Shown here: positions 17,322 through 56,506 of the stretch, piece after piece
Layout: every line of letters starts with the position of its first letter
How positions within the stretch are numbered: the stretch's first letter is position 1
Assembly: GCF_014395425.1 (NCBI RefSeq)
Contig: NZ_CP060711.1
Coordinates: forward strand, 124,001-188,000
Source: Thermomonas brevis
GTDB taxonomy: Bacteria; Pseudomonadota; Gammaproteobacteria; Xanthomonadales; Xanthomonadaceae
Direction of reading: 5' to 3'
Length of the DNA stretch: 64,000 nt
Position numbers and translations under genes: made by a program
The notes under the pieces: model-generated
The model's input: the letters and a program-made list of their open reading frames with translations, nothing else
The model's database searches: none
Told to the model about the DNA's origin: nothing

Positions 17322-17345
17322 GCGGGAAGGTGGAAAACCGGAGCT

Positions 17346-19920: not shown

Positions 19921-20061
19921 GACAGCTCCTTCGCGCGCCGCTAAGGCGCACGGCAAGGGACCGGGGATTTCCCGGTCGAGTGGCAGTGAGAAAAGGCACA
20001 GCTCGCGCTCGCGAACGGCGCCTCGGCGCTCAGTGCACGGGTTCGGGCTCGAACCGGTAGC

Positions 20062-39564: not shown

Positions 39565-40842
39565 GTGATTGGTCAGTCAGGGTGCGATATCAACTGTGCC
39601 ACCTCGATGGATGCATCGCTCAATCAGCGGTGCGCATGCGAGGTGGTCGACGTCTTGAGGTTGCACGAGTCGATCAGGTCCGACTTTCCGGAGTTTACGA
39701 CTGATCCATCCGTGCACGCGCACCTGTTTTCCCCCTACGCGCTGTTCGTCGACCGTGCGGCGTTGGAGGCTATGGGGCGCGTGGCGGCGGCGCTCTTCGA
39801 CGTTGCGAGCAATCCGCAATACCGCCAACACGTCCTGCAATGGGCTCCGAACATCGGCAGCCATGATCCGGGGTCGGCGGGTGGCGTCCTAGGCCTAGAC
39901 TTCCACCTGACCGTCGACGGTGCGCGGTTGATCGAGGTCAACACCAATCCCGGCGGGCTGCTTCTCAATGCAGTGCTGCTCGATGCTGTGCAGACCTGCG
40001 CGCCGGCTGCGTGGACCACCTGGACAACGGCGGCGAAGGCCGGCGACGCGGCCATCGCCGCGTGGCTGGACGATGCGCGGCAGCAGTCCGGCCGCGCGCC
40101 TGCGCGCTTGGCCATCGTGGACAGCGTCCCATGGGAGCAGTTCCTTTACCCTGAGTTCGAACTGTACGCTGCCGCATTCCGGGAGCATGGCGTGGACTGC
40201 GTGATACGCGCGCCGGAAGAACTCCGCTTTGGGCCAGGCGGGCTTGCAGATGCCAACGGTCGGATCGACCTGGTCTACAACCGGCTGACTGATTTCGCCC
40301 TTGAAGAAGCCTCGCATGCAGACCTTCGGCAGGCTTACCTAGCGGGGAGCGTCGCACTCACCCCGCATCCGCGTGCGCACGCGCTTTTCGCGGACAAGCG
40401 CAACCTTACCGTGCTCGGAGATCCAGCTCTGCTCGAAGGATTTGGGGTTGATGCAGATTCGACGACTCTGCTGGCCCAAGTAATTCCGCCCACGTTTGAA
40501 GTCGTGCCTGGGAACCGAGATGCGCTATGGGCAGCCCGCAACAGTTACTTTTTCAAGCCTGCGGCAGGGTTCGGCAGTCGCGGCAGCTATCGAGGTGACA
40601 AGCTCACCAAGCGAACGTGGGAGTCGATGGCGTCGGCGACCTACATCGCACAAACCTTCGCGCCACCGAGCATGCGGATCGTGCATGGGGGCCAGTCCCT
40701 CAAGGCGGATGTGCGCTGCTTCGCGTCCGAGGCGGGTGTGCTGTTGTTCGCGGCCCGGCTTTATCAGGGCCAAACCACGAACATGCGCACCCCGGGTGGT
40801 GGATTCGCAGCGGTGCTCACGACGCCCCTAATCGACGAGTAA
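39565..40842 (+). CDS. ATP-grasp-like protein, substrate unknown
   Basis: The GTG at 39565 is chosen because AAGGAG precedes it by seven bases; an ATG at 39607 is an alternative. The 425-residue product has LGLDFHLTVDGARLIEVNTNPGG, whose latter part (LIEVNTNPGG) is the metal-binding end typical of ATP-grasp ligases. SYFFKPAAGFGSRGSYRG is a glycine-rich loop of the ATP-binding fold, and SLKADVRCFAS follows. The order, with the acidic-Asn motif early and the Lys/Gly loop late, suggests circular permutation or a divergent family. It faces the acetate kinase gene tail to tail. Confidence 0.7.
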   Translation: MIGQSGCDINCATSMDASLNQRCACEVVDVLRLHESIRSDFPEFTTDPSVHAHLFSPYALFVDRAALEAMGRVAAALFDVASNPQYRQHVLQWAPNIGSHDPGSAGGVLGLDFHLTVDGARLIEVNTNPGGLLLNAVLLDAVQTCAPAAWTTWTTAAKAGDAAIAAWLDDARQQSGRAPARLAIVDSVPWEQFLYPEFELYAAAFREHGVDCVIRAPEELRFGPGGLADANGRIDLVYNRLTDFALEEASHADLRQAYLAGSVALTPHPRAHALFADKRNLTVLGDPALLEGFGVDADSTTLLAQVIPPTFEVVPGNRDALWAARNSYFFKPAAGFGSRGSYRGDKLTKRTWESMASATYIAQTFAPPSMRIVHGGQSLKADVRCFASEAGVLLFAARLYQGQTTNMRTPGGGFAAVLTTPLIDE

Positions 40843-40877: not shown

Positions 40878-41981
40878 CTACAGCCAGGCCAGTGCCGATT
40901 CAGCCAGCTCGCGTTCCTCATCGATCGCGACGTTCCAGATCGCCGGCCCACTCCCGCCATCGATCCGTATGGCTCCTGCATCGTTGTCGCGAGACGCCAG
41001 CGCCAGACCAAGCCAGCCCAGGCGCGCGACGATGCGAGCACGCAGGCCGGGCGCGCGATGGCCGATGCCGCCGGAAAAGACCACATGGTCAACGCCCCCG
41101 ATTGCCGTGGCCATGGCCGCAATGGCCTGCGCAATCCGGACTGCGAACAGCTCCACGGCAAGCTGCGCCTGGGGGTCGGGGTCGGCGAGCAGCATGCGCA
41201 TGTCGCCATGCCCGGCAATGCCGGCAAGGCCGGCAGCGCGGGACAGACCCTCTTCAAGCGTCTGCGCATCCAGACCTTCGTGCCGGAGCAGATAAAGCAA
41301 CGCACCGGGATCGAGATCCCCGGAGCGGGTAGGGCTCGGGATTCCACCCAGCGGAGTGAGCGCCATGGTGGTGTCGCGGCTCCTACCATCTTCGACGGCG
41401 CAGACGCTGCAGCCACCGCCCAGATGCGCGAAGACGGCGCGGCTCTGCAGGATTCCGGCGTCGTGGCTGGCGACGATCCGCAGCGCGGAGGCAAAGGCAA
41501 GCCCATGGAAACCGTAGCGGCGGATACCCAGCGCATCCCATGCTTCGGGGATGGGTAGACGCCGGCTCCAGGGGGCGAGTGAGGCGTGAAAGTCGGTGTC
41601 GAAGGCCACGCCCTGGCGGGCTTGCAGCCATCGCAGCCGCGCGGCGCGCGCGAAGGCGAGTGCGAGCGGCTGGTGCAAGGGCGCGAACGGCACCAATGCA
41701 TCCAGTTTCGCGAGCACAGCTTCGTCGAGCTCACGGGACTCGTGAAGGTCACCGCCGTGCACGATCCGGTGGACCACCACCTCAGGGCCGGCCGCCGTTT
41801 CCGACAAGGTTTCGAGCAGGGTGGCAAGGCGCTCTTGCGCATCCGGGCCGACTGAAATCTCGACCCGGGAGCGCTCGACGACGCGAGGCTGTGCGCCCGG
41901 CACCTCAGCGTTCAACAGGTAGGACGCGCCCTTGAGGGTGGACGAGCCAACGTTGAGTGCCAGAAGCCGGCGCGTGGTCAT
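40878..41981 (-). CDS. ackA: Acetate kinase
   Basis: Acetate kinase makes ATP from acetyl phosphate. The ATG at 41979-41981 gives 367 residues starting MTTRRLLALNVGSSTLKGAS, with NVGSSTLK as the phosphate motif. It has VVHRIVHGGDLHES, VAFDTDFHASLAPW, RYGFHGLAFASAL and DHVVFSGGIGHRAPGLR. It is slightly shorter than the usual 400. It is the last gene of the minus-strand island operon, 19 bases after the CPH-type ATPase gene. The upstream phosphoketolase gene would supply acetyl phosphate. Confidence 0.92.
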   Translation of the reverse strand: MTTRRLLALNVGSSTLKGASYLLNAEVPGAQPRVVERSRVEISVGPDAQERLATLLETLSETAAGPEVVVHRIVHGGDLHESRELDEAVLAKLDALVPFAPLHQPLALAFARAARLRWLQARQGVAFDTDFHASLAPWSRRLPIPEAWDALGIRRYGFHGLAFASALRIVASHDAGILQSRAVFAHLGGGCSVCAVEDGRSRDTTMALTPLGGIPSPTRSGDLDPGALLYLLRHEGLDAQTLEEGLSRAAGLAGIAGHGDMRMLLADPDPQAQLAVELFAVRIAQAIAAMATAIGGVDHVVFSGGIGHRAPGLRARIVARLGWLGLALASRDNDAGAIRIDGGSGPAIWNVAIDEERELAESALAWL

Positions 41982-42000: not shown

Positions 42001-44076
42001 TCATCGGGACCGTACCGCCCGGCGCAACAGCTGCGCATTGATGGCGACAACTATCGTGCTTAGCGACATGAGCACCGCCCCGAGCGCAGGTTGCAGCAGG
42101 ATCCCCCATGCGGCGAGAACCCCTGCGGCCAGAGGGATGGCGACGATGTTGTAGCCGGCGGCCCACCACAAGTTCTGGATCATCTTGCGGTAGGTTGCCT
42201 TGCTCAATGCAATGATCGCCGGCACGTCGCGCGGGTCGCTGCGCACGAGGACGACGTCACCGGCCTCGACGGCGACGTCCGTCCCTGTGCCGATGGCGAT
42301 GCCGACATCGGCCGTGAGCAGCGCCGGCGCGTCGTTGACGCCGTCGCCCACCATTGCAACGCGCTTGCCCTGGGCCTGCAGCTCCTCGATTTTCGCCACC
42401 TTGTCCTCGGGCAGGACTTCGGCGAAGACGGCGTCGATGGCGAGTTCCTTCGCGACCGCATTGCCGACCGCCGTGGAATCACCCGTCAGCAGCACCACCT
42501 CCAGTCCGTTATCGTGCAGCCGCTTGACCGCATCGAAAGACTCCGGGCGGATGGCATCGGCGATGGCGAACACGGCGAGCACCTGGTTGCCCTCCACCAG
42601 GTAGGTTGCCGACTGGCCGTCGGCTGCCGCTGATTCGGCGGCCCGCCGCAACGTCTCCGGCAGTTCGGCGGCGAGCATTTTCAGTAGCGCTGGCCCACCG
42701 ACATGAAGCCGGCGCCCCTCGACGAGTGCGCGTACGCCGCGACCTGGCATGGACTCGAAGTCCTGCGAAAGCGGGACTTCGATGCCATGTTCCTTGGCGC
42801 TGGTCATCAGTGCCTGCGCGATCGGATGTTCGGCATCCCGCTGGACGGACGCGGCCACGCGAAGCACCTCGTCGTCGGGGAATCCATCAGCGGCGGTGGT
42901 CTTCACCACGCGATGCGAACCGAGGGTGAGCGTACCTGTCTTGTCAAACACGACCGTGTTCAGCAGGCGGGCCTCTTCGAGGCCGCGTCGATCGCGCACG
43001 AGCAGGCCGTTGCGTGCGCCGATCGTGGTCGAGATGGCGGTCACCAGCGGGATGGCCAGACCCAGCGCATGGGGGCAGGCGATCACGAGAACCGTCACTA
43101 CGCGCTCGATCGTGAAGCCCCACGGTCGGCCCAGGAGTGGCCAGACGATAGCGGTGATGGCGGCGGAGACGATGGCGATGATCGTGAGGTAGAACGCCGC
43201 GCGATCCGCCAGGGCCTGGGCGCGCGAGCGCGACGTCTGGGCCTGTTCGACGAGCCGCATGATGCCCGCGAGTGCCGTCTCGTCGCCGGTCCCCGTCACT
43301 TCGACACGCAGCGAGCCCTGTCCGTTGACGGTGCCGGCGATCACCCGGTCGCCCGCCGACTTGTCCATCGGCTTGGACTCGCCGGTGATCATCGCTTCGT
43401 TGACGGCGCTGGTCCCTTCCTTCACTACGCCGTCGGCAGGAATGCTGGCGCCGGGCCGGATGAGCAGCAGGTCGCCGCGCCTCAGTTCCGCGACGGGGAT
43501 TTCCTTCGTGGTACCGGCCTCATCCAACCGCACCGCCATGTCAGGCAGCAGCTTCGCGAGCTCCTTGAGCGCGCCCTGTGCCTGGTTGATCGAACGCATC
43601 TCGATCCAGTGGCCGAGCAACATGATCGCCACCAGCGTCGCCAGCTCCCACCACAGATCCAGTCCCTCGACAAGGCCGAGCGTGACCACGGCGCTGTAAA
43701 CAAAGGCGACGGTGATCGCAAGCGAGATCAGCGTCATCATCCCCGGCAAACGACTGCGCAGTTCCTGGTATCCGCCGCGGAGGAACGGCGAGCCGCCGTA
43801 GAAGTACACGACCGTGCCGAACATCGCGGGGATGTACGCCGCGCCCGGGAACTGCGGTGCGGTGTAGTCGAACCAATGCTGGATCATCCCGCTCCAGATC
43901 AACGTGGGGATGGTCAGCAGCAGCGTGAGCCAGAACTTGTCGCGGAAGCCCGCCGCGCTGTGGCCGGCATGCTTATCGTGCCCGGCATGGGCGTCGCCAT
44001 CGCCACGCTTGCGGGAAACAAGCGATTGTTCGCTATGTGCCTGGTGATCTTGATGATGGTGGTTGTGTTGCGTCAT
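42001..44076 (-). CDS. copB: CopB-type (CPH) copper P1B ATPase
   Basis: This 691-residue inner-membrane pump has a His-rich N-terminus (HNHHHQDHQAHSEQS, HAGHDKHAGHS). The transmembrane metal motif is CPHALGLAIP, which marks the P1B-3 group linked to Cu(II)/Cu(I) export. P-type ATPase motifs are complete: [19 protein letters not shown] and MVGDGVNDAPALL. The ATG at 44074-44076 is preferred to one ten codons earlier. It sits between the UbiB-like and acetate kinase genes, an odd location that ties metabolism and copper genes together. Confidence 0.93.
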   Translation of the reverse strand: MTQHNHHHQDHQAHSEQSLVSRKRGDGDAHAGHDKHAGHSAAGFRDKFWLTLLLTIPTLIWSGMIQHWFDYTAPQFPGAAYIPAMFGTVVYFYGGSPFLRGGYQELRSRLPGMMTLISLAITVAFVYSAVVTLGLVEGLDLWWELATLVAIMLLGHWIEMRSINQAQGALKELAKLLPDMAVRLDEAGTTKEIPVAELRRGDLLLIRPGASIPADGVVKEGTSAVNEAMITGESKPMDKSAGDRVIAGTVNGQGSLRVEVTGTGDETALAGIMRLVEQAQTSRSRAQALADRAAFYLTIIAIVSAAITAIVWPLLGRPWGFTIERVVTVLVIACPHALGLAIPLVTAISTTIGARNGLLVRDRRGLEEARLLNTVVFDKTGTLTLGSHRVVKTTAADGFPDDEVLRVAASVQRDAEHPIAQALMTSAKEHGIEVPLSQDFESMPGRGVRALVEGRRLHVGGPALLKMLAAELPETLRRAAESAAADGQSATYLVEGNQVLAVFAIADAIRPESFDAVKRLHDNGLEVVLLTGDSTAVGNAVAKELAIDAVFAEVLPEDKVAKIEELQAQGKRVAMVGDGVNDAPALLTADVGIAIGTGTDVAVEAGDVVLVRSDPRDVPAIIALSKATYRKMIQNLWWAAGYNIVAIPLAAGVLAAWGILLQPALGAVLMSLSTIVVAINAQLLRRAVRSR

Positions 44077-44191: not shown

Positions 44192-45784
44192 TCACAGGTG
44201 CCCCGATCTGGCGATGGCCATTACCAGCCGCAGGGATAGCAGGCCCGCTGCAGTGAAGGCCAGCACCGCCATGACAGGCAGGTGACCGAACACTTGCGGG
44301 CCGTCGGAATGCAGGCTCAGCAGGGCGCCGCTGACGTACAAGCCCAGGGTGACCAGGGCCAATGCCAGCCGGTTGCCGGTGCGCGCGAGCGCCTCGTGCG
44401 TGGGCGCCAGACCGTGGTGGTGCACCGAGAGCGCGGGCCGTCCGTCGCTCAGCTGTGCCTGTCGCAACAGGTCGGTGGCGATCTGTGGCAGCTGGCGGGC
44501 GGTGCGGGCCAGCCGCATGGCAAGCGGCCTGTTGCCGCCGGGGCGACTGGCATCGGCGATGTCGGCGATGTCGGATGCCTGCGCCGACAGCGACCCCATC
44601 AGGTCCAGATCCGGATCCAGGGCGCGCAGCGTGTTCTCGACCAGAAACAGCGTGCGAATCAGCGCCAGCAGGTGGGAAGGAAGCCGAAAGCCCGCGCCCT
44701 GCCCAATCCGCGCCACGCGCCAGATCGCCTCGGCGATGGACCACTCCGCCAGCGGACGGCTGGCCATCTCGGCCAGGATCAGGTGGATCTCGCGCACGTG
44801 CGAGCGCCGTTCGACCTGCGGCGGGAAGAAGCCCAGGGCGATTGCCGCATCCAGCACGCCCTCGGCATCGTCGGCCGCGATGGCCTCGACCATGCCGCCC
44901 AGCGCGAGCCGGGAAGCCGGGTCGAGCACGCCGATCGAGCCGAAATCATGCAGGCACAGGCGACCGTCGTCGAAGAAGAACAGATTCCCTGGATGGGGAT
45001 CTGCATGGAATACGCCGGCGCCGAACAGCTGATGCACGTAGGCATCCAGCAGCTCCCTCGCCAGCGCGGGAGCGGCCGCTGTTCCGTAGGCGGCCTCGAG
45101 GCGGGTGCCGTGGCTTCGATCCTGGACCATCACGTCTCGGGCGGCGTAAGGTTCGACGACGTGTGGCTGGGTGATGCCGGGCAGGGCGTCAAGCACCCTG
45201 GCCATGCGACGCATGTTCTGTGCTTCGTGGCGCATGTCGATCTCGTCGCGCAGGAAGGCACCCAGTTCGTCGACGAGCTCGAGCGGGCGGTGCCGCGTGA
45301 GCGGCGGCCACAGCCACTGGGCCACGCGCACCGTGCGCCGCAGCAGCCGCAGGTCGGCCTGCACCTGGGCATGGATGCCGGGGCGGGTGATCTTGACGAC
45401 CACGTCGCGTCCGTCATGCATGCGCGCCGGGTGGATCTGGGCGACTGAAGCCGCGGCCAGCGCCCTGTCATCGAAGCTGGCGAAGAGCGCGTCGACCGGT
45501 GCGCCGAACGCCTGCTCGACGCTGCGCCTCGCCTGCTCCGCAGGAAACGCCGGCACATCGCTGTGCAGTCGCGACAGCGCCTCCCGATAGGGCACCGGCA
45601 GTAGGTCCCAACGCAGGCTCAAGCCCTGGCCCAGCTTGACGAAGGTGGTGCCCAGCCCGACCAAGGTGGCGCTGACGTACGCGGGAAGCCGTTCGGGTGC
45701 GCGCCGGCGCAGGCGCAGCACGGCGACTCCGAGCTTCAGTCCGGCCCAGGCGATCTGACCTCCGCGGCGCACCGTGCCGGCCAT
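44192..45784 (-). CDS. UbiB/ABC1-family atypical kinase
   Basis: The ATG at 45782-45784 gives 530 residues. The family KxGQ motif appears in TFVKLGQGLSLRWDLLP. The ATP-site lysine is in DVVVKITRPGI, and the metal-binding Asp in CLHDFGSIGVLDP. Two C-terminal hydrophobic helices (LALALVTLGLYVSGALLSL and MAVLAFTAAGLLSLRLVMAI) should anchor it in the inner membrane. UbiB proteins support ubiquinone synthesis or lipid homeostasis; this copy lies in the phosphoketolase island, so it may be a specialised paralogue. The larger open frame running to 46279 overlaps the phosphoketolase and is not coding. Confidence 0.88.
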   Translation of the reverse strand: MAGTVRRGGQIAWAGLKLGVAVLRLRRRAPERLPAYVSATLVGLGTTFVKLGQGLSLRWDLLPVPYREALSRLHSDVPAFPAEQARRSVEQAFGAPVDALFASFDDRALAAASVAQIHPARMHDGRDVVVKITRPGIHAQVQADLRLLRRTVRVAQWLWPPLTRHRPLELVDELGAFLRDEIDMRHEAQNMRRMARVLDALPGITQPHVVEPYAARDVMVQDRSHGTRLEAAYGTAAAPALARELLDAYVHQLFGAGVFHADPHPGNLFFFDDGRLCLHDFGSIGVLDPASRLALGGMVEAIAADDAEGVLDAAIALGFFPPQVERRSHVREIHLILAEMASRPLAEWSIAEAIWRVARIGQGAGFRLPSHLLALIRTLFLVENTLRALDPDLDLMGSLSAQASDIADIADASRPGGNRPLAMRLARTARQLPQIATDLLRQAQLSDGRPALSVHHHGLAPTHEALARTGNRLALALVTLGLYVSGALLSLHSDGPQVFGHLPVMAVLAFTAAGLLSLRLVMAIARSGHL

Positions 45785-45809: not shown

Positions 45810-48273
45810 TCACGAGGCCTGTCCCGTTTCCGGGCGCAGGACGGTGGCCGGATCGCCGCGACCATCCACTGCCGCCAACTCCGCTTCCGACAACAGACTG
45901 CCACGGGACTCGCCGAGGACGCCCGCAGCCGCATCGACCACGTGCGCCCAGGTGCTGCGGTTGGCGAACAGCAGGCCGGGCACGTCCAGCGTGCCGCCGC
46001 GGTTGACGAAGCCCAGCGCCGCAGTGGTGGCCGGGCCGGTGTCGAGTCGGCGCAGGGCGCCGAGGAAGGGTTCGGGGCGGGTGTGGGTGACGAATACGCG
46101 CGGTCGGCCCACCGGGAACAGCGCCTGGACCGCGCTGTCGGAGTGCACGTACCGCGCCTCCTCCGGATCGCGCGGCGTGCGGAACCGGCCGGGCTCGCCG
46201 AGATAGACGATCGCCGCCGCGACACCACCTTCGACGAGGCGCGCGTGGGCGCGACGAACTTCCTGCAATTGGTAGGCACCGGTGGCGACCAGCAGGACCG
46301 CCGCCGACGCCGGATCTCCGGCCAGGCACGTTGCCCCGGTCTCGGCCAGCGCCTGGGCCTGCTGTGACGTCAGCTCATGGGGCACCGGGCGCTTGGGGAC
46401 GACCAGGGTGGTGACCGTGCCGCGTTGCGCGTAGGCGTGGGTGAGGGCTGCGGCGGCGCCGTTGGCATCGGGCGGAAACACCACGCGCGAGATGTCGGCC
46501 ATCTCGCCCATGAGCGCCTCGGCCATGGTCGGATCCTGGTGCGACTGCTCGTTCTTCGAGTTTTCCCACGTGTGCGAAGTCAGCACCAGCGGCACGCCCA
46601 GCCAGCCGGGCGGGCGTCCGGCCTGCTTCTGATGGCGGGCAAAGATCAGTTCCTGGCGCACGGCGCCGAGCATCTTCGGCGCGAACGCCTCGTAGGTGAC
46701 CACCAGGTTCAGGCCGCCCTTGTTGCCGAGCGCGGCGCAGACCACGGCCTCCTCGTTGAGCGCGGTGATGACCGCGCCGGTCGTCGATTCGGCAATGCCG
46801 GGCTCGGGCTCGTGCACCCGGTGCTTCATCGCGTCCAGGGTGCGGTCGAGCTTGTTGCTGCGCAGCTCGTCGGGATTGCCCACGCGCACGCGCAGGCCCG
46901 GGTTCGCTTCGGCGATCGCGACGAACTGCTCGTCCAGCGCGGTCATCGGCGAGCTCTCGCCGCCGGCACCGCGGTCGGCGATCGCCGGCACGCGGGGTGG
47001 TTCCATCTGGCGATCGGCCAGCGCATGGTCGCGTTCGCGCACCCGCTGCTGGTCATCGTGGCTGTTGAGTGCGGCGACGGCCTCCTCGAGTTCGGGGAAG
47101 GTCACGAACAGAGCTGCAGCGCCCTCATTGAAGAGCGTGCGCGCCTCTGCATCCACCGCCGGATTTCCGGGCAGGGGAAGATTGTGCGAGGCGTTGGTCC
47201 CGGCGCCGGGAAGCCGAAGCCCTTCACGGTTTCGGCGATGCCATAGGGCAGCCGCACGTCGGTATCGGGGACGGCGGCGCCCGCTTGCAGGCGCGATTCC
47301 ATCACGTGGATGCCCCACGCGATGCTGGCCGGATCGCGCCCGTCCAGCGCGATCGGATCAAAGCCGTTCAAGCGCAGGTGCCGGTCCAACCAGCGCTCGC
47401 CGCCTTGCTGGGTGATCTGGCTGCGCTGTTCGATACGCCGCCCGTTGAGGATGATGATCGGGCTGACCAGCCCGCTGTCTTCGGCACGCCACCAGCGCGG
47501 CGCCCAATCGCTGCCGCGCTGTTCTTCGAACGCACCGTCGCTGAGGAACGCCACCAGGCGTTCGTCCTTGAGCGGCGCATGCACGTACTGAAGCTCGGCA
47601 AAGCCGAGATAGCCACCTTCCATCACGCCCCGGCGGTATGCGCATTGACGTGGGAGCCCAGCGGCGACGCCGGCGTCCCGTCCGGATTGAGCGTGTAGGC
47701 GTAGAAGTCGCCGACGAACCGGCTCAGTCCGGCGTCGGAGCGGTCATAGCGTTCGGCGTGCCTGTCGGTCATGTTGCCAACCAACACGTTCAGCGCGTCG
47801 ATCGCGGCCACGCAGTGCCCTTGGCCCATCATCCAAGCGCGGGTGACACCATCCAGGGCGTCCATCAGGAGGTAGCCAGCGTAGGCGGGCACCATGTTGA
47901 GGGACCCGCCGGTGTGGCCTTCAGGCGTGAGCTTGAAATCGTCGGCCTCAAGGACCGTGCCGTCGGTACGGACCCGCTGGCTGTAGGTCATGTGCGCCAC
48001 CAGCCACATGCCGGCACTGGCGACGCGATCGGCCGCGGCGAGCCGCTGCCAAGCAGTGCCGGTATTGGGCGTGCGGCCCAGGGCCACCAGTTCGTCCACC
48101 ATCTGGCGGACCCGCAGCTGGGTGAGCGGGTCATGCCGGATCACGCCGTAGCCGGCTGCCCAATGTGCGAACGCGCGATCAGCCTGCCGGTGGGCATCGG
48201 CCAGTTCAAGGATCCGCTGGCGCTCGGCGGCTGACAGCTGGTCGGCGGTGCAGCAGTTCAGATGCAGGTTCAT
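45810..48273 (-). pseudogene. xfp: Phosphoketolase (Xfp-like), two frameshifts
   Basis: Phosphoketolase splits xylulose 5-phosphate or fructose 6-phosphate with phosphate to acetyl phosphate. The gene reads in three frames. MNLHLNCCTADQLSAAERQR to SHVNAHTAGA covers 48273-47623, then MEGGYLGFAELQYVHAPLKD, then GAGTNASHNLPLPGNPAVDA to the end at 45810. Adding one G near 47626 and one at 47206-47207 restores a single 821-residue protein close to family size. LTPEGHTGGSLNMVPAYAGY and VTYEAFAPKMLGAVRQEL are strong family segments. The ATG overlaps the PRPP synthase-like stop. Both breaks cost one G/C, so they may be sequencing deletions. Confidence 0.85.
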
Positions 48274-49184
48274 GGGTCCTCCGGGGAATTGGTCGAAGCA
48301 GCCATCAGTGTCGAGGCCGCAGCGGCAAGGTCCGCGCCGAGCGCAATTGCGTTCGACGGGTGGGAAATGGTGTCGGTGCTGACGATACGAGCCAGGCCCG
48401 CCTCCTGCAGGCGGGCATAGGCATCGCCGGCAAACACCGGATGGATGGCGACCAGCAGCGGTGGCGGCAGCGACAGCTGGCGCAGGTGCGCGAGGGTCTC
48501 CAGGATCGTATGGCCGGACGACACGATGTCGTCGATCAGCACCTGGGTCCGGCCGGCCACGGCCGCCGGGTCAGGCAGGCTCACGCGCACGTCGTAGTCG
48601 CCGTGGCGTTCCTTGGCGAGGACCTGGTAGGGCATGCCGGAGCGGGCGGCGATGTCGGCGACCCATTGCTCGCTCTCGCTGTCGGGTCCGATCAGCACCG
48701 CATCGGGGACGGTTTCCGCGATCCAGCGGGCCACGGCCGGCGTCGCCGACACGTGGGCCGTCGGAATCCGGTAGAGCGACTGCAGGCGCTCGACGCGGTG
48801 CAGGTGCGGGTCGACGGTCACAAGCCAGTCGAACGTCTCCTCCAGGAACTGGGCAAACAGCGGCGTGCTGACCGCTTCACCACCATGGAAACGCTTGTCC
48901 TGGCGCATGTACCCGAGGTAGGGCGCGATCAGGCCGACCGAGCGCGCCCCGAACTCGCGCGCCGTTCGGGCGGCGAAACGCAACGGGAGGGCCAAAGCAT
49001 CGGCGTGGCGCAGGCTGGCCAGGATGGCCACATCCGCGCCAGCCAGCGAGTCCTCCAGGGTCACCAGCGACTCGCCATCGGGAAAGTGCCGCCAAGCCAC
49101 AGGTGCAATGCGCGCCTGCATAGCCTGGTTCATGGTGCTGGCCAATGCTGCATCGGCCGGGAAAGGCATCAGCACACGGGTCAT
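48270..49184 (-). CDS. Ribose-phosphate pyrophosphokinase-like protein
   Basis: The 304-residue product resembles PRPP synthase. It has GLIAPYLGYMRQDKRFHGGE, AKERHGDYDVRVSLPDP at the flexible catalytic loop, and the PRPP-binding motif VLIDDIVSSGHTILETLAHL. It overlaps the genes on both sides by four bases. It is too divergent from housekeeping Prs to be the primary enzyme. A role in making or breaking PRPP next to AMP phosphorylase is inferred. Confidence 0.88.
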   Translation of the reverse strand: MTRVLMPFPADAALASTMNQAMQARIAPVAWRHFPDGESLVTLEDSLAGADVAILASLRHADALALPLRFAARTAREFGARSVGLIAPYLGYMRQDKRFHGGEAVSTPLFAQFLEETFDWLVTVDPHLHRVERLQSLYRIPTAHVSATPAVARWIAETVPDAVLIGPDSESEQWVADIAARSGMPYQVLAKERHGDYDVRVSLPDPAAVAGRTQVLIDDIVSSGHTILETLAHLRQLSLPPPLLVAIHPVFAGDAYARLQEAGLARIVSTDTISHPSNAIALGADLAAAASTLMAASTNSPEDP

Positions 49185-50698
49185 GGAACCTCTCCAAGGA
49201 CGAAGGGTTGCAAGGTGGCGGCGTGCTCCAGCGCATAGGCCAGCTCGCCCGGAGACTCCGCATGCAGGGTCAGCAGAGGCTGTCCGCGCTCGACCGCATC
49301 GCCGACGCGCAGACTCGTTTCCAAGCCGGCGGTGGGGGATGTGGGTGCGCCGGCCAACTTGGCCAGCTTGGCCAGCCTGCGGTTGTCGATTTCCGTGATG
49401 CGGCCCGACGCGGATGCCGGAACGTCGGCGGTGAATGGCGCCCGCGCCGGTTCGCGGAAGCCTCCCTGGGCTTCGCAGATCGCCAGGAACTTGGCCAGCG
49501 CCCTCCCGGAATCCAGCACGCTGCGCGCGCGCTCCAGTCCGGTGCCGGCGCTGCTGCCCGGTGCCATGTCCAGCAGCGCCGCCGACAGCGCAAGCGCGCG
49601 TTCGCGCAGGTCGGCCGGTGCGTCGGTGGCGTTGCGCAGCACCTTGAGCACATCGTGCGCCTCGAGCGCCGGGCCGATGCCCCGACCCACCGGCTGGGTG
49701 CCGTCGGAGCGATGGATGGCCAGCTGCAATCCAAGCGCGCTGGCGGTGTGTGCAAGCCGCGAGCCGAGGCTGTCCGCCGCAGCCTCACTGCGCACCTTGG
49801 CGGTCGGACCCACCGGCATGTCGATCAGCACGTGGGTGGAGCCCGCCGCGATCTTCTTCGACAGCACGCTGGCTACCAGTTGTCCGTCGCTATCGAAGTC
49901 CAGCGGGCGCTGGACCCGGATCAGGATGTCGTCGGCCGGGCTCAGGCGCACGTTGCCGCCCCAGACGATGCAGCCGCCCTCGCGCTCCACCACCCGCCGC
50001 ATCGCCGCCAGGTCGAGCGCCACCGGCGCCATCACTTCCATGGTGTCGGCGGTGCCCGCGGGCGATGTGATGGCGCGCGAGGACGTCTTCGGGATGCGGT
50101 AGCCCAGCGCGGCCACGATGGCCACCACGATCGGGGTGGTGCGATTGCCCGGCAGGCCGCCGACGCAGTGCTTGTCCAGCACCGGCCCATCGCCCCAGTC
50201 CAGGCGCTGGCCAACCGCGATCATGGCCCGCGTCAGCGCGGTCGTCTCGACGTTGTCGAGGCGGTCGCCCGCGCTGGCCGTGACGAAGGCGGCAAGCTCC
50301 AGGTCCGACAGCCTGCTTTCCATCACGTCCTGCACCAGGGCGAGGTACTGCGCGTCGTCCAGCCGTGCCCCGAACACCTTGGCGCGGAGCGCGCCTGCCG
50401 ACGCCGCGGGTTCCGTGTGCCGGACCCGGGCAAGGACATCGGGCATGGGATCGAGCAGCGTCCACGCGGTCTCCGAGAGCGCCACCTCGTCCAGGCCGAG
50501 CCGATCGTCCACGACCACGTTCAGCGTCGCCACCAGCGTGCGCGAACCCACGTCTAGCCTCACGCGAGTCATCGCGGCAAAGCCTTCCGAGCGGCAGACT
50601 TCACAGTCGCGGTGCATGTACACCACCGGCTGCTGGTAGGTGTCGATGCCGGCACGGGTGACGCGCAGCAGGGTGTGAGCAGCGGCCAGCTCGCTCAT
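49181..50698 (-). CDS. AMP phosphorylase-like (thymidine phosphorylase family) protein
   Basis: The 505-residue product has an extra N-terminal domain (about residues 1-85) before the nucleoside phosphorylase fold, as in archaeal AMP phosphorylase rather than ordinary DeoA. The phosphate site reads DKHCVGGLPGNRTTP and the next conserved block is PKTSSRAITSPAGTADTME, both closer to AMP phosphorylase. The predicted reaction is AMP plus phosphate to ribose 1,5-bisphosphate plus adenine. It overlaps the metallo-hydrolase and PRPP synthase-like genes by four bases. No ribose 1,5-bisphosphate isomerase or RuBisCO gene is near, so the fate of the product is open. Confidence 0.87.
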   Translation of the reverse strand: MSELAAAHTLLRVTRAGIDTYQQPVVYMHRDCEVCRSEGFAAMTRVRLDVGSRTLVATLNVVVDDRLGLDEVALSETAWTLLDPMPDVLARVRHTEPAASAGALRAKVFGARLDDAQYLALVQDVMESRLSDLELAAFVTASAGDRLDNVETTALTRAMIAVGQRLDWGDGPVLDKHCVGGLPGNRTTPIVVAIVAALGYRIPKTSSRAITSPAGTADTMEVMAPVALDLAAMRRVVEREGGCIVWGGNVRLSPADDILIRVQRPLDFDSDGQLVASVLSKKIAAGSTHVLIDMPVGPTAKVRSEAAADSLGSRLAHTASALGLQLAIHRSDGTQPVGRGIGPALEAHDVLKVLRNATDAPADLRERALALSAALLDMAPGSSAGTGLERARSVLDSGRALAKFLAICEAQGGFREPARAPFTADVPASASGRITEIDNRRLAKLAKLAGAPTSPTAGLETSLRVGDAVERGQPLLTLHAESPGELAYALEHAATLQPFVLGEVP

Positions 50699-52080
50699 CG
50701 CGCATCCTCCAGCCCAACGCGCTCCAGGTGCTCCGGAACGCGTGCGCGCCAGCCCAGCTCGCGCTGCACGCGCCCGCGCAACGTGTCGGCTGCATCGGGC
50801 TCGCCGTGGGTGAGGTAGACGACGCGCGGCGCGGACGGCGCGGTGCGCATCCAGTCCAGCAGTTCCCCGGCGTCGGCGTGGCCAGAAAAGCCTTCCAGCT
50901 GCACTACCTCGGCGCGAATGGGGACCTCGCGGCCAAACATGCGCAAGGTTCGCTTTCCTGCCGCCAGCGCGGCACCGCGTGTTCCGCCGGCCTGGTAGCC
51001 CGCGAGCAGGATCGCGTTTCGGTCATCCGGACCGAACGCCTCGATGTGGTGCAACACGCGCCCCCCGGTCGCCATCCCGCTGGCGGAGATGATGATCATC
51101 GGTCCGCGCTGGCGGTTGAGCGCCTTCGACTCTTCCACCGTGTTGACGAAGGTGGCCACGTCGAACATCCGCTGGCAGTCCTCTTCGGACACGTGGTGCT
51201 CGGAATGGTGGGCGTGGTAGTGCCGGGTCGCGTTGATCGCCATCGGGCTGTTGAGGTACACCGGCACGCGAGGGATCTCCTTGCGCTCACGCAGCCGGGC
51301 GATATGCAGCATGAGCGCCTGGGCGCGTCCGACAGCAAAGGCGGGGATGACGATAACGCCCCCGCGCGCGGCAACACGGCGGATGATCGGGGCCAATTCC
51401 GCTTCCTGGTCGATCGGGACGTGTTCGCGATTGCCGTAAGTGGACTCGCAGACCAGTACGTCGCAGGCGGGCAGGGGCGTCGGCGGATTCATCAGCGATT
51501 CCTGCTGCCGTCCCAAGTCGCCGCTGAAGTGCAGGCGCTGGCCCTGGACATCCAGGCTGACGTGGGCGGCGCCCAGGATGTGACCTGCGGGGTGGAAGCG
51601 CACCGTGAAGCCGGGCGCGACCTCGATGTCGCGTTCATGGTCATGTCCCTGCAGCTGCTTCAGGCTGCGACGGGCGTCATCTTCCGTATAGAGCGGTCGC
51701 GGCTCCTTGTGCTTCGAGTAGCCCTTGCGCGCGGCGTACTTCGCCTCTTCTTCCAGCAGGTGCCCGCTGTCGGGAAGCAGCAGTCCGCACAGCGCCACGC
51801 TGCCGTGGGTGCAGTGGATCCGGCCGCGGAACCCCTGCTTGACGAGTGCGGGCAGGTAGCCCGAATGGTCCAAGTGGGCGTGGGTCAGGATCACCGCATC
51901 GATTGATGCCGCGTCGACGGGAAACGGTGCCCAGTTGCGCTCGCGCAGCTGTTTGTAGCCCTGGAACAGGCCGCAGTCGACCAGCACGCGCTGGCCGTTG
52001 GCCTCGACCAGGTAGCGCGAGCCGGTGACTGTGCCCGCGGCGCCGAGGAAATGCAGGGTGGGGTTGGAAGACGCTGTCAT
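50695..52080 (-). CDS. MBL-fold/beta-CASP RNA-processing-type hydrolase
   Basis: The 461-residue protein has the metallo-beta-lactamase motif HAHLDHSGYLP after DAVILT. It also has VLVCESTYGNREH, HPAGHILGAAHVSLD, and beta-CASP motifs such as IIISASGMATGGRVLHHI and EGFSGHADAGELLDWM. These match the RNA exonuclease/CPSF-like group that degrades or trims RNA. As the first gene of the coupled set with AMP phosphorylase and PRPP synthase-like genes it could supply nucleotides from RNA, which is inference. Confidence 0.9.
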   Translation of the reverse strand: MTASSNPTLHFLGAAGTVTGSRYLVEANGQRVLVDCGLFQGYKQLRERNWAPFPVDAASIDAVILTHAHLDHSGYLPALVKQGFRGRIHCTHGSVALCGLLLPDSGHLLEEEAKYAARKGYSKHKEPRPLYTEDDARRSLKQLQGHDHERDIEVAPGFTVRFHPAGHILGAAHVSLDVQGQRLHFSGDLGRQQESLMNPPTPLPACDVLVCESTYGNREHVPIDQEAELAPIIRRVAARGGVIVIPAFAVGRAQALMLHIARLRERKEIPRVPVYLNSPMAINATRHYHAHHSEHHVSEEDCQRMFDVATFVNTVEESKALNRQRGPMIIISASGMATGGRVLHHIEAFGPDDRNAILLAGYQAGGTRGAALAAGKRTLRMFGREVPIRAEVVQLEGFSGHADAGELLDWMRTAPSAPRVVYLTHGEPDAADTLRGRVQRELGWRARVPEHLERVGLEDAR

Positions 52081-52160: not shown

Positions 52161-52574
52161 TCAGGGGCGAACGAGCTCCACCGTGTCGTTGACCTTGGGG
52201 CTGCCGGAGATCACTTCGGCATCCGCGTAGTGACCGTCGAACAGTTCAACGATCCGCACTTGGCCGACGTTTTCACGGCGGTAGCGTGGACCGCCGGTCC
52301 GCGAATGCCGGATGCGGCGCTTGTGCCGGATCACATCCAGCACCTGCCCGACCTGAGCGCCGTCGGCCTGTCCGACGCAGACGACGAGCGTTTCGTCCTG
52401 CTTCTCCAACACTTGGCCGCGCATCAGTACGTTGTGACGGAACCCACCTTCACTCGCCGAGGCGACACCCGGCAGTGCGAAGGCGAACAGAGCAGCCAAG
52501 GCCAGCGCGGCATGCCAGCGGCGGGGATACGTGCCTCGGGCCCTTGGGTGGGCAAGGTGCGTCGCGGGATTCAT
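52161..52574 (-). CDS. Secreted hypothetical protein of the copper island
   Basis: The 137-residue product has an N-terminal twin-arginine-like but probably Sec signal ([20 protein letters not shown]) cut near VASASEGG. The mature part ([40 protein letters not shown]) has a repeating beta-strand pattern like SH3-type or FlgT-like beta domains. Its ATG overlaps the P1B ATPase stop, so it is translated with that pump. Function is unknown. Confidence 0.7.
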
Positions 52575-54961
52575 GGCGTGGACTCCTTGGACTGGATGCG
52601 AGGGGAGGCGGCAACGTCCGCCAGTGGAAGGCGTTTGAGAAGCAAGGCATTGAGGGCCACGATCACCGAACTTCCCGACATCGACAGGGCGGCGATTTCC
52701 GGCGACAGCACGAACGGATAGAACACGCCGGCCGCGAGCGGGAAGGCCAGCACGTTGTAACCCACGGCCCAGCCGAGGTTCTGGTGCATCTTGCGCAGGG
52801 TGGCCCGGGCGATGGAGGTCGCGCGCACGACGTCGTAGGGGTCGCTGTGCATGAGCACGATGTCGGCGCTCTCGATGGCGACGTCCGTGCCGGCGCCGAT
52901 CGCGAAGCCGACGTCGGCCTGCGTCAGCGCCGGTGCGTCGTTGATGCCGTCGCCCACCATGCCGACCTTGAGGCCCTGCGACTGCAGCTTGATGACCTCG
53001 TCGGACTTGCCGCCAGGCAACACGTCTGCCAGCACGATGTCGATCCCCAGATCCTGAGCTACGCGTTCGGCGGTGGGGCGATTGTCGCCGGTGATCATCG
53101 CCACTTTGATGTTGCGACGATGCAGTTCGTCGATGGCGGCGCGCGAGGTCTCGCGGATCGCATCAGCGATGGCGAAGAAGCCCGCAAGCTCGCCGCCTAC
53201 CCCTGCATAGATCACGGTGCGACCCGCGCCGGTGAGGCGCGCGGCCTCCGCTTCCAGCACGGATAGATCGATTCCGTGTTCGACCATCAGGATGCGATTG
53301 CCCAGCAGGACCTGCACCCCGTCAACCACCCCGGTGGCGCCCTGGCCGTCGATGTTGGTGAAGGCCGTAGCGCGTTCGGCTGCCGGACCGGCGCGCTTGA
53401 GGATCGCTTGCGCCAGCGGGTGCTCCGAATGCGCCTCGACCGCAGCGGCCGTGGCCAGTAGCCGCTCCTGCGTCCAGCCCGGTGCGACCGCCATGTCGAC
53501 CACCTCCGGTGCACCGACCGTCAGGGTTCCAGTCTTGTCAAAGATCACAACGTCCAGCCGGGCGCTCTTCTCGATGGCTTCGGCGTGTTTGAACAGAATG
53601 CCGTGTCGAGCGCCCAGGCCCGTGCCGATCATGATCGCCATCGGGGTGGCCAAACCCAGTGCGTCGGGACAGGCAATGACGAAGACGGTGATCGTCAGCG
53701 TGAGCGCGAACATGAGCGGCTGTCCCAGCCACCAGAACCAGACCGCGAAGGTCAGCAGCCCGATCACGATCGCGGCCAGCACCAGCCACTGCGAAGCGCG
53801 GTCGGCGAGCAGTTGCGCAGGCGCCTTGGAGTTCTGTGCGGTCTGGACCAGCTTGATGATCTGCGCCAGCGCGGTATCGCTGCCGATCTTGGTGGCGGTG
53901 TAGGCAAATGCACCGCTCTTGTTGATCGATCCGCCGACAACGGAGGCCCCTGGGTCTTTGCGCACGGGCATCGACTCGCCGGTCAGCATGGATTCGTCGA
54001 CCTGGGAGCTGCCTTCAGCGACGGTGCCGTCGACGGGGATCTTCGCCCCCGGCCGCACCACGACCATATCGCCGACCAGGACTTCGGCGGTCGGGATGTC
54101 GAGCTCCTGTCCGTCACGGCGCACCACCGCGCGGGGCGGGGACAGCTTCAACAACGCCTTCATCGCGTCCGAAGCGCCGGCGCGTGCCCGCATCTCGAGC
54201 CAGTGGCCGAGCAGGACGAAGGTCAGCAGGACCGCCGAGGCCTCGTAGAAGTTCGGTCCGTCGAAGAAGAACGTCGACGCGATGCTGAACCCGTAGCCGG
54301 TGCCCACGCTCAGCAGCACCAGCACCGCCATGTCCAGCACGCCGCGGCGCAGCGAACGAATCGCCGCACTGAAGAACGGCCAGCCCGGATACAGCACGGC
54401 GCCGGTCGCCAGCAGGAACAACCAGACGTTCTCGCGCAGTCCAAACGGCACCGGCGGCGGCTCCATCAGGCCGCCCATGGGCGACCACACGAATACCGGG
54501 ATCGCGAAGGCGAGAGCGACCAGGAAGCGGCGGCCCATGTCGCGCGCCGCGGCGTGCAGATCGCTGCCGTGGTTCATGCCCGCATGGGCGTCGTGACCCC
54601 CGGCATCCTTGGCGTCATCGCCGTGGCCGGCGTGGGCGTCGGCAGGGTGCTCCGCGGTGGTACCCGGTCCGTGCCGGGCATGCGCAGCGTGGGCGTGCGC
54701 GCCTGCGCCCGGGCCGGCAGCGGGCATCGAGGCGTCGCATTGGAAGCCGCAGTCGCGGATCGCGGTGGCGACCGCGCCCGACGACAGGCGGGCCGGGTCG
54801 TAGGACACCTGCAGGGTCGCGGTGGCGAAATTCGCGATGGTGGCGTTGACTCCGGGCAACGCGGCTACGGCCCTCTCCAGCGTGCGCGCGCAGCCGGCAC
54901 TCACCATGTCGCCGATGGGCCAGGTGCGCGTGCGCACTGGCGGTTCGTGGACGTGTGTCAT
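52571..54961 (-). CDS. P1B-type metal ATPase with CPD motif and degenerate HMA domain
   Basis: The 796-residue pump has an N-terminal HMA-like domain (about residues 8-75) in which the usual GMxCxxC reads DMVSAGC, leaving one cysteine. A His-rich linker follows ([31 protein letters not shown]). The transmembrane motif is [13 protein letters not shown], with Asp where CopA has Cys and CopB has His. Catalytic motifs [19 protein letters not shown] and [13 protein letters not shown] are intact. It overlaps the ICMT-family gene by four bases. Copper or a related metal is likely from the neighbourhood, but the CPD motif leaves specificity open. Confidence 0.9.
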
Positions 54962-55623
54962 CGGACTTCTCCCTGGGATGGGGCGGGGCCGCGCCTGCGT
55001 CGCGGAATGAAGGCCGGCACCTGCTGCATGTAGCGGACGTACTCGTCGCCGAAGCGGCCCAGGCAGTCCTTTTCCTCACGGCGCGCCAGGCGGGCATAGG
55101 CCCACACGAGCACCGGATAGCTGGCGAGCGTGAGCAGCGTGGGCCACTGCAGCAGGAAACCGGTCAGCACCAACACGAAAGCGACGTACTGCGGGTGGCG
55201 CATGCGCGCATACACGCCGTCTCGGGCCATCCGGCCCTCACGCTGCGCCCGATACAACACTGGCCAGGCGGCCGACAGCAGCCAGAAGCCACCGCCGATC
55301 AGGACGAAGCTCGCCATGTGGAATGGACCAAAATGCGGATTGGCGCGCCAGCCGAACCACATCTCCAGCAGATGGCCCGCGTCATGGCTGAGCCAGTTCA
55401 CTTGCGGATAATTGGCACTGAGCCACCCGCCCAGGACGTACAACGTCAGCGGGAAGCCATACATTTCCGCGAACAGGGCCACGACGAAGGCGGAGAACAT
55501 CCCGAACCCCCGCCAGTCCCAGCGGGTCAAGGGCTTGTAGAAGCTCCAGGCGAAGAAGATGAAGAACGCGGTGTTGATGGCGGCCAGCAGCCAAAGGCCG
55601 TAGCCGGAGTCGGGTGCCTGCAT
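54958..55623 (-). CDS. Isoprenylcysteine methyltransferase (ICMT)-family membrane protein
   Basis: The 221-residue product has five or so hydrophobic segments ([78 protein letters not shown]). It also has the C-terminal cofactor-binding signature [16 protein letters not shown] and [20 protein letters not shown], as in ICMT/phospholipid methyltransferase families. Bacterial members occur in metal islands without a proven substrate. It overlaps the CPD-type pump by four bases and follows the DUF2933 gene by one base. Confidence 0.85.
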
Positions 55624-55624
55624 G

Positions 55625-55939
55625 TCAGTGCCCTCCGTTCGAGGTGTCGGACGTTTCGTCGTTCAGTGCCCGCTTGCTACGGCTCTCATGCTGGCCATGG
55701 GGTGTGTCGTCGGCATTGCCGTCGCGCCCATGACTTCCGGAACCTCCATGACCGCCATGCCCCTTGTGCATGAACACATGCATCAAGGGACATAGCAGCA
55801 GGATGGCCAGGGGCAACCAGCGAAGAGTCCCCCCAAGGTGGGCGCGGTGCTCGACGGCGAGATAGAACACGGCCAGCGCCAGGAAGATCCAGAAGACCCA
55901 GCGTCGGGAGCCTGAGGGGGCAGGACTGGAGGCTGTCAT
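55625..55939 (-). CDS. DUF2933 family small membrane protein
   Basis: The 104-residue protein has two hydrophobic segments (WVFWIFLALAVFYLAVEH and WLPLAILLLCPLMHVFMHKG). Between the second and the C-terminus lies the family hallmark CPLMHVFMHKGHGGHGG, a His-rich tail that may bind metal. DUF2933 proteins are common in copper islands. Its ATG overlaps the merR stop. Confidence 0.85.
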   Translation of the reverse strand: MTASSPAPSGSRRWVFWIFLALAVFYLAVEHRAHLGGTLRWLPLAILLLCPLMHVFMHKGHGGHGGSGSHGRDGNADDTPHGQHESRSKRALNDETSDTSNGGH

Positions 55940-56448
55940 GGCAAATTCTCCTCTGTGGGGCGGCGTCCAAGAAGTCGCCGCGGGGTGGACTTGACGAACC
56001 CGCCGCCTTCAGCAGCGGCAACAGATTCGATCAATGCGCAGACTTCGTTGCCAGTTGGAATGGAGTCCGGCAGCGAAGCCCAGGCGCGCACGGCATGCTC
56101 CATCCGTCCGTGCATGGCGAGCAGCGTGTCCAGCTGGTGACGGGTGTCGTCGAGCCTGCGTCGGATGATGTCCCTCACCAGTGGGCAAGGGCTGTGCCGC
56201 AGCAGGCTGTGGTGGATGATTTCCTCGATTTCCCCCAGCGTGAAGCCAAGGTGTTGCGCCGTGCGAATGAAGTGCAGGCGAAGGAGCTCCGAGGTGGAGA
56301 ACAACTGGTAGCCGCCCTCGGTATGCGTGGCCGCTTGCAACAGACCGCGCCGCAGGTAGTTGCGCACCACATGCACCGTGACATCGCCCTGCCGTGCCAG
56401 CTGGCGGACCGTCATCAGCGGCAGCGTCACTTCTTCCTTGGTCGTCAT
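55936..56448 (-). CDS. MerR-family metal-responsive regulator
   Basis: The 170-residue protein has an N-terminal winged helix-turn-helix (LMTVRQLARQGDVTVHVVRN, LRRGLLQAATHTEGGYQLFS) and a dimerisation helix (RRRLDDTRHQLDTLLAMHGR). Cysteines in RHSPCPLVRDIIRR and NEVCALIES are placed as in metal sensors of the ZntR/CueR group. It heads the leftward genes and has a 19-bp-spacer promoter just upstream. The inducer is probably a metal ion, likely copper. Confidence 0.88.
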   Translation of the reverse strand: MTTKEEVTLPLMTVRQLARQGDVTVHVVRNYLRRGLLQAATHTEGGYQLFSTSELLRLHFIRTAQHLGFTLGEIEEIIHHSLLRHSPCPLVRDIIRRRLDDTRHQLDTLLAMHGRMEHAVRAWASLPDSIPTGNEVCALIESVAAAEGGGFVKSTPRRLLGRRPTEENLP

Positions 56449-56475: not shown

Positions 56476-56506
56476 AGGCTAGACCTGTGTCTCGCACACA
56501 GGTCAA
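56476..56506 (-). promoter_or_regulatory. MerR-type promoter/operator upstream of merR
   Basis: On the minus strand TTGACC (56506-56501) and TAGCCT (56481-56476) are separated by 19 bases, the long spacer typical of MerR-controlled promoters. The spacer carries the inverted repeat GACCTGTGT/ACACAGGTC (56482-56490 and 56496-56504), the likely operator. It lies about 28 bases before the merR ATG and should drive merR and the downstream copper genes. Confidence 0.82.

Follow-up and report, generated by a model that had tools for sequence, protein, structure and literature searches.

Genes of the operon and its head promoter

The DNA analysed here (the window) is a stretch of 64,000 nucleotides from Thermomonas brevis, positions 124,001 to 188,000 of contig NZ_CP060711.1. 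It contains a run of 12 genes, from merR to ackA, in which two copper-type ATPases share a single minus-strand directon (56448–40878) with enzymes predicted to act on RNA, nucleotides and pentose phosphates. The genes follow one another with gaps of −4 to 115 bp, in the order merR, a DUF2933 gene, an isoprenylcysteine methyltransferase-like (ICMT-like) gene, copA2, a small-protein gene, a gene for an MBL/beta-CASP/RMMBL hydrolase (MBL), a phosphorylase gene, a paralogue of phosphoribosyl pyrophosphate (PRPP) synthase (PRS), a phosphoketolase, a ubiB-like gene, copA1 and ackA. The co-location of the copper genes with the enzyme set is well supported, and the gene spacing strongly suggests co-transcription from merR to ackA.

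The upstream part of the operon encodes a merR-family metal regulator (55936–56448; Pfam MerR_1 and MerR-DNA-bind), a small membrane protein of family DUF2933 (55625–55939; PF11666, 75.6 bits), which recurs next to the cluster on plasmids, and an ICMT-like membrane protein (54958–55623; PF04140). These are followed by the copper-type P1B ATPase CopA2 (52571–54961), with HMA, E1-E2 ATPase and HAD domains and a TIGR01511 match of 598 bits at genome positions 176634–178385, and by a small protein (52161–52574) whose open reading frame overlaps copA2 by 4 bp and which has, by eye, a signal-like N-terminus and belongs to no Pfam family. Then come the MBL hydrolase (50695–52080), a probable RNase whose closest solved protein is Ribonuclease TTHA0252 (E 1e-79), the AMP (nucleoside monophosphate, NMP) phosphorylase-type protein (49181–50698), PRS (48270–49184; PRK07199, 364 bits against a cut-off of 322) and the divergent phosphoketolase, XFPdiv (45810–48273).

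The original prediction described these last four as a set of genes with successive four-base overlaps. The overlaps are there, the last of them at the phosphoketolase start (48273), but the fourth member is not one gene and the set is larger, comprising all 12. Downstream, as predicted, lie a UbiB/AarF-like kinase (44192–45784; PF03109, 194 bits, with the UbiB equivalog cut-off not reached) and acetate kinase (40878–41981; PF00871, 214 bits), and the two copper pumps said to be linked to the metabolic genes do stand on either side of them, copA2 upstream and copA1 (42001–44076; TIGR01511, 584 bits, cut-off 397) downstream. MBL, phosphorylase, PRS, ubiB-like gene, copA1 and ackA are each a single open frame in the window.

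A MerR-type promoter is located 27 bp upstream of merR, on the minus strand at 56476–56506, where TTGACC and TAGCCT are separated by a 19-bp spacer with the dyad ACCTGTGT-N5-ACACAGGT; the dyad between the two elements is perfect (8+5+8). The layout is that of MerR-family promoters. The copper ATPases of the operon lie behind it, and the pattern appeared in none of 100 shuffled versions of the window. When 130 loci (L031–L160) were scanned, 114 remaining after removal of duplicates (some loci had been fetched twice from two collections, giving 16 duplicates among 137), the promoter was found with at most four mismatches in 31 of the 130 and 23 of the 114, every one of them copper-linked. These loci include Arenimonas, a Variovorax plasmid and L064, which belongs to a different family of the order, and the promoter is retained down to clusters that are only about 60–75% identical. 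A stricter dyad finder was positive at 27 of 70 copper-linked phosphorylase loci and at 0 of 42 unlinked ones (duplicates included).

Phosphorylase, PRPP-synthase paralogue and phosphoketolase

Is the phosphorylase of AMP type, as originally proposed, or an ordinary thymidine phosphorylase? The protein matches PRK04350 at 647 bits, and its alignment to the AMP phosphorylase profile TIGR03327 runs from position 3 to position 492 of 500, N-terminal extension included; the match of the host's own DeoA starts at position 89, without this extension. Four other bacterial cluster members score 446–487 bits against the same profile, and a haloarchaeal one 610. Of 101 columns that are invariant in nine sequences, the haloarchaeal AMP phosphorylase among them, 46 differ in the host's DeoA, and the closest solved proteins are 4ga5/4ga6 (312 bits). 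The N-terminal part, together with a signature that the archaeal enzyme has and DeoA lacks, points to a phosphorylase of the AMP type rather than the DeoA/thymidine phosphorylase type. An ordinary thymidine phosphorylase is ruled out, the host's DeoA being a separate gene. The archaeal enzyme is reported, in the section of PMC9700705 drawn on here, to be active on AMP, CMP and UMP.

An enzyme of this kind would yield ribose 1,5-bisphosphate (R15P), which in the archaeal NMP shunt passes to R15P isomerase and type III RuBisCO. The window shares with that shunt the family and signature of its first enzyme, but pairs the phosphorylase with a PRPP-synthase paralogue and a phosphoketolase and not with isomerase and RuBisCO. 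The absence of these two enzymes, remarked on in the original prediction, extends to the whole genome (G000), which has no R15P isomerase over the cut-off and no RuBisCO match. The host's own isomerase match falls below the cut-off and is MtnA-like. Among 39 cluster-bearing genomes, R15P isomerase exceeds its cut-off in none (38 have a match below it) and RuBisCO is matched in six, once strongly (426 bits) and five times weakly (60–73 bits). PhnN, which in E. coli provides a route from R15P to PRPP that would solve the same problem (PMC9700705, same section), is over its cut-off in one of the 39, and in the host it reaches 50 bits against a cut-off of 156. With the known consumers of R15P almost absent, the diverged PRS, as the constant partner of the phosphorylase, is the best candidate for the missing link.

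PRS is 27% identical to the housekeeping Prs. In 106 cluster PRS sequences (duplicates included) the RQD, DPH, K-R loop and DD motifs are kept at a level of at least 90%, and in at least 90% of the same sequences PDxES stands in place of PDxGG, and SSxxT in place of TAGT. Both of these motifs are intact in the host's housekeeping Prs, as PDVGG and TAGT. The PDxGG and T-A/G-G-T motifs presumably form the ribose-phosphate side of PRPP synthase.

The phosphoketolase region, 45810–48273, had been read as one gene. It is 2464 bases long, which is no multiple of three, and is spread over three frames (47623–48273, 47102–47626 and 45810–47318), a pattern that fits the loss of one base near 47626 and another near 47205. 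When the window frames were compared with open reading frames from ten related loci, the phosphoketolase of each of eight relatives matched the window in three frames; the few other multi-frame matches lie at acetate kinase, which is one frame in the window, or on the opposite strand. Programmed frameshifting is unsupported, since the gene is a single frame of 766–821 residues in 16 of 16 relatives examined, as it is at locus L081 of Pseudoxanthomonas sp. J35 and its duplicate L032. The omega of the window phosphoketolase, 0.116, indicates purifying selection and resembles those of five other operon genes (0.065–0.122), implying that the breaks are either recent or artefactual. A Lamassu-like anti-phage pair elsewhere in the window (plus strand; LmuA, 28267–29397, 432 bits; LmuB, 29694–31145, 639 bits) bears on this choice. 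The LmuB match covers only positions 89–561 of its profile, and a Walker-A-like stretch lies just upstream in another frame, so that LmuB also looks split in this assembly. This leans towards assembly error, and the evidence favours assembly indels over fresh decay of the phosphoketolase.

What kind of enzyme an intact XFPdiv may be is best seen in its relatives. One of them (P0004) matches XFP at 134 bits and XFP_N at 48 bits, where the window's own pieces give XFP only. Eight residues (H120, H153, H208, G221, H363, E507, N574 and H578) are invariant in 14 sequences; mapped by eye, they correspond to what we take to be the canonical catalytic residues. XFPdiv has the XFP and XFP_N domains and the recurrent ackA neighbour of a canonical phosphoketolase, but its scores of 114–128 bits do not reach the NCBIfam phosphoketolase cut-offs of 777–1518. 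Most of the plasmid copies (for example L074, L077, L079 and L080) are annotated as 'xylulose 5-phosphate 3-epimerase', a name for which, together with phosphoketolase, the open-access literature yielded only a Lactobacillus study.

Distribution and association with copper and low oxygen

An arrangement confined to this strain is ruled out, and the synteny anticipated in the original prediction is found across the order, on plasmids and in other genomes. Phosphorylase matches occur in 112 of 398 genomes of the order (E 1e-30). About 80 of those places hold near-full-length orthologues of at least 47% identity, the other matches being fragments or only 31–39% identical; we take the latter to be ordinary DeoA-like proteins, on the strength of a check of the host's own. 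Forty of the roughly 80 orthologous loci were fetched, three short-contig ones near the top being skipped. PRS lies within the cluster in all 40, more often than chance would allow, and adjoins the phosphorylase in 39, and XFPdiv is present in 16. Six loci from different genera, one of which belongs to a separate family of the order, share 92–99% identity, indicating that the gene set moves.

Plasmid records that match the phosphorylase at E 1e-40 number 116, a few of them archaeal, and the phosphorylase–PRS pair extends to other classes and to a plasmid from the Bacteroidota. In the plasmid regions opened, clusters are accompanied by copper pumps, multicopper oxidases or DUF2933 in Agrobacterium, Paracoccus, Martelella, Roseovarius, Roseibium and Sulfitobacter, and likewise in Sinorhizobium, Variovorax, Acidovorax, Sphingobium and Legionella adelaidensis; on three plasmids copA immediately follows PRS. 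Other surroundings also occur. The Bacteroidota plasmid has the MBL–phosphorylase–PRS trio and no annotated copper gene in 12.7 kb, Novosphingobium has all four genes near NO and hypoxia-type genes, and in Bradyrhizobium septentrionale the trio adjoins universal stress proteins. In Phenylobacterium and Alteromonas the phosphoketolase is present, with no phosphorylase within 13 kb. Two Thermomonas loci (L096 and L097) have MBL followed by phosphoketolase, and phosphorylase and PRS were not found there; the core pair can thus be missing while the rest stays. At four other loci of the order (L055, L056, L057 and L070, of which L056 is nearly a duplicate of L055) a phosphoketolase-type match of 25–28% similarity shares a stretch of 20 kb with the phosphorylase–PRS pair, as does an acetate kinase match in three of them, so that phosphoketolase may have become associated with the pair on more than one occasion.

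The linkage to copper was measured from XFPdiv, using the best 80 of 561 confirmed relatives, a choice that over-represents close relatives and to which all XFPdiv group and flank counts below refer. Collapsed at 80% identity, the 80 loci form 23 groups, in which the phosphorylase is found 17 times, PRS 16, MBL 15, ackA 13 and a copper marker 12 times. For the 15 groups in which each flank extends to at least 7 kb, the figures are 12, 12, 11, 9 and 10, respectively. A CopA ATPase of at least 40% identity is present in 8 of these 15, compared with about 1% expected by chance, a figure derived from 200 CopA matches in 101 genomes with a different threshold, and one that treats islands as if they were random places. 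No paper on this copper linkage was found by title or abstract in the open-access literature, subscription journals lying outside the search.

The same counts bear on whether the set serves energy supply at all. The frequent partnership of the beta-CASP protein (15 of 23 groups) and the universal stress proteins near some clusters would suit a device that lowers AMP and RNA in stressed cells, controlling nucleotide pools and RNA turnover for dormancy and feeding no energy pathway. The recurrence of XFPdiv (16 of 40 loci of the order) and ackA (13 of 23 groups) points instead to a flow of carbon and energy, and we consider the dormancy explanation quite improbable.

A different role is suggested by the targets of copper. 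In Staphylococcus aureus, according to the part of PMC10249872 used here, Cu(I) inhibits Prs, PRPP drops and more prs helps, and the authors also cite copper inhibition of GapDH. The island might therefore be a collection of copper-tolerant stand-ins for poisoned Prs, GapDH and the lower pentose phosphate pathway, in which PRS would form PRPP out of ribose 5-phosphate, its AMP product would be recycled by the phosphorylase, and energy from RNA is not the point. Type II glyceraldehyde-3-phosphate dehydrogenase (GAPDH) matches lie in the fetched flanks of 18 of the 80 XFPdiv loci, the family being confirmed for two plasmid copies, and the PRS paralogue itself, at times as a short fragment, occurs in 60 of the 80 named loci. 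None of the 36 fetched PRS members of the window clade, which come from 27 distinct loci, contains cysteine, compared with six cysteines in the housekeeping Prs, and copper-linked PRS is lower in cysteine overall (mean 0.78% in 16 clusters, against 1.08% in 22 unlinked clusters; p=0.011, uncorrected for four tests). The other three proteins tested show no such difference by copper linkage, so that cysteine depletion is not a general copper signature, and its complete loss is limited to one clade. The GAPDH and cysteine patterns are no more than suggestive of copper adaptation. Against a simple stand-in for Prs there are also the altered acceptor-side motifs of PRS and the induction of the same trio by microoxia in Bradyrhizobium, described next, and we regard this explanation as somewhat unlikely.

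Loci outside copper islands carry a different signal. Of 34 unlinked loci, 15 have an exact FNR/FixK box heading the phosphorylase operon (12 of 31 once duplicates are removed), against a background of 65 in 2520 random windows of the same loci (2.6%); of 69 copper-linked loci, 3 have one (3 of 57 without duplicates). After clustering at 85% the contrast is 9 of 26 against 2 of 24 (p=0.04; with one mismatch, p=0.054). At 75% it is non-significant (p=0.36 exact, 0.20 with one mismatch), and in another version of the 75% clustering the p values were 0.38 (FNR) and 0.125 (MerR). After clustering, the contrast is thus too weak to uphold a clean division into FNR and MerR control according to copper linkage.

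A link to oxygen limitation is supported by published data for Bradyrhizobium diazoefficiens, taken here from parts of two sources. In a fixK2 mutant, bll3115 and bll3117 are down 30.6-fold and 6.6-fold, and bll2518 (phosphoketolase) and bll2517 (acetate kinase) 10.0-fold and 10.2-fold, bll3116 being covered only through the predicted operon bll3117-bll3116-bll3115 (PMC9104804). At 0.5% O2 the proteins of bll3117, bll3116 and bll3115 rise by log2 2.1, 4.4 and 2.9 and their transcripts 5.1-, 7.7- and 15.4-fold, and the phosphoketolase rises by log2 4.3 and 8.2-fold (PMC6515984). These genes appear to be orthologous to those of the cluster, judging from their names, their order and a 46% match in B. 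septentrionale. The likeness lies in the presence of the phosphorylase–PRS–MBL trio, phosphoketolase and acetate kinase among FixK2-dependent genes (PMC9104804, PMC6515984, in the parts used). The difference is that B. diazoefficiens keeps them in separate operons under FixK2 (bll3117-3116-3115 and bll2518-2517), whereas in the window they share a single operon with the copper pumps, behind a MerR-type promoter, and the phosphoketolase is of the divergent type.

Could the enzyme genes form a general cassette for low-oxygen stress, placed next to copper genes for no other reason than that mobile islands and plasmids gather stress genes? The FNR/FixK boxes, the many plasmid records and the hypoxia or NO gene contexts at some loci are consistent with this. 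In the lineage of the window, however, the genes are part of the copper operon itself, with overlaps or short gaps between them, and follow a single metal-type promoter that is kept across divergent clusters, and copA stands directly after PRS on three plasmids. Such chance association therefore seems distinctly unlikely.

Proposed role of the operon and other genes in the window

Copper resistance is usually described in terms of export, sequestration and oxidation. The reading that we prefer adds metabolism to these, with a copper-inducible operon that combines copper export with a respiration-independent shunt from nucleotides to pentose phosphate; we put its probability at just under one half (about 0.48). 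The promoter and gene order are observed, and the MerR-type regulator would sense the metal, probably copper, and fire the head promoter. The beta-CASP enzyme, to judge from its family, would free 5'-NMPs from RNA, and the AMP-phosphorylase-type enzyme, whose family and signature are observed, would convert NMP and phosphate into base and R15P. The diverged PRS may then turn R15P or its product into PRPP, or PRPP and AMP into ribose 5-phosphate and ATP, or both. Host isomerase and epimerase would supply xylulose 5-phosphate, from which XFPdiv would make acetyl phosphate and glyceraldehyde 3-phosphate, and acetate kinase would use the acetyl phosphate to make ATP. The xylulose 5-phosphate cleavage step is the one interrupted in this assembly by two frame changes, recent or artefactual. 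Since copper is reported to poison both Prs and GapDH of S. aureus, the set would secure a supply of PRPP and ATP for as long as the pumps are active. The predicted salvage chemistry is plausible, and we regard the arrangement as a copper operon joined to an NMP shunt, each of a kind already known.

Several observations weigh against this reading. The phosphoketolase is frame-broken in this assembly, and the phosphorylase, at 439 bits, does not reach the AMP_phos equivalog cut-off of 535 in TIGR03327. The activities of the bacterial cluster members are predictions from family, and the use of R15P by the PRS paralogue is likewise deduced. The regulator falls under the cut-offs of the metal-specific CueR, MerR, ZntR and CadR profiles (51 bits for CueR, cut-off 147). 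After 75% clustering just 2 of the 12 phosphorylase clusters linked to copper are positive with the strict promoter finder (p=0.125), so that the promoter is strong evidence in this lineage and not a general rule, and no promoter match was obtained at six plasmid loci with copper genes (L071, L072, L074, L078, L079 and L080), all alphaproteobacterial save the gammaproteobacterial L078. In B. diazoefficiens, the trio and the phosphoketolase are marked as not belonging to the direct FixK2 regulon (Mesa 2008) and as uninduced in soybean bacteroids, as far as the part of PMC6515984 used here goes. Finally, copper markers are absent from 11 of the 23 XFPdiv groups, some of them on short contigs, and CopA of at least 40% identity is found at just 1 of the 18 more distant phosphorylase–PRS loci (L053–L070). 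The idea that the synteny tracks copper genes therefore holds for about half of the XFPdiv groups (12 of 23) and is not universal, and copper was probably not the original role of the module.

A more specific proposal, which we consider unlikely, is that the module is a bacterial NMP shunt in which a PRS subfamily consumes R15P directly, giving PRPP, ATP or both in place of the isomerase–RuBisCO branch, with XFPdiv making acetyl phosphate, and that it moved from FNR/FixK to MerR-type control on mobile islands as the metabolic arm of copper resistance. A conserved metabolic arm, if real, would show which cytosolic targets cells must bypass under copper, and would agree with the poisoning of PRPP synthase by Cu(I) that was recently found. 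The copper-export and nucleotide-shunt reading would also offer a bacterial answer to the fate of R15P without RuBisCO, and explain a widespread gene set whose members at present go under the names of thymidine phosphorylase, ribose-phosphate pyrophosphokinase and xylulose 5-phosphate 3-epimerase.

Other genes of the window deserve brief mention. A 425-residue protein encoded on the plus strand at 39565–40842, belonging to no Pfam or NCBIfam family, is retained at 84–92% in several of the close clusters; in L038 and L044 a 49% match lies near the phosphorylase. Next to flagellar genes, a four-gene block (14782–19956, minus strand) encodes an AAA ATPase and a protein with a weak TniQ-like match (E 9e-4), and is possibly a Tn7-like transposition set; its other two genes have no family match. 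The stretch before the copper operon also encodes, on the minus strand at 25116–26378 and 27588–28124, a Y-family (impB/mucB/samB) polymerase with DUF4113 and a cytidine-deaminase-family protein.

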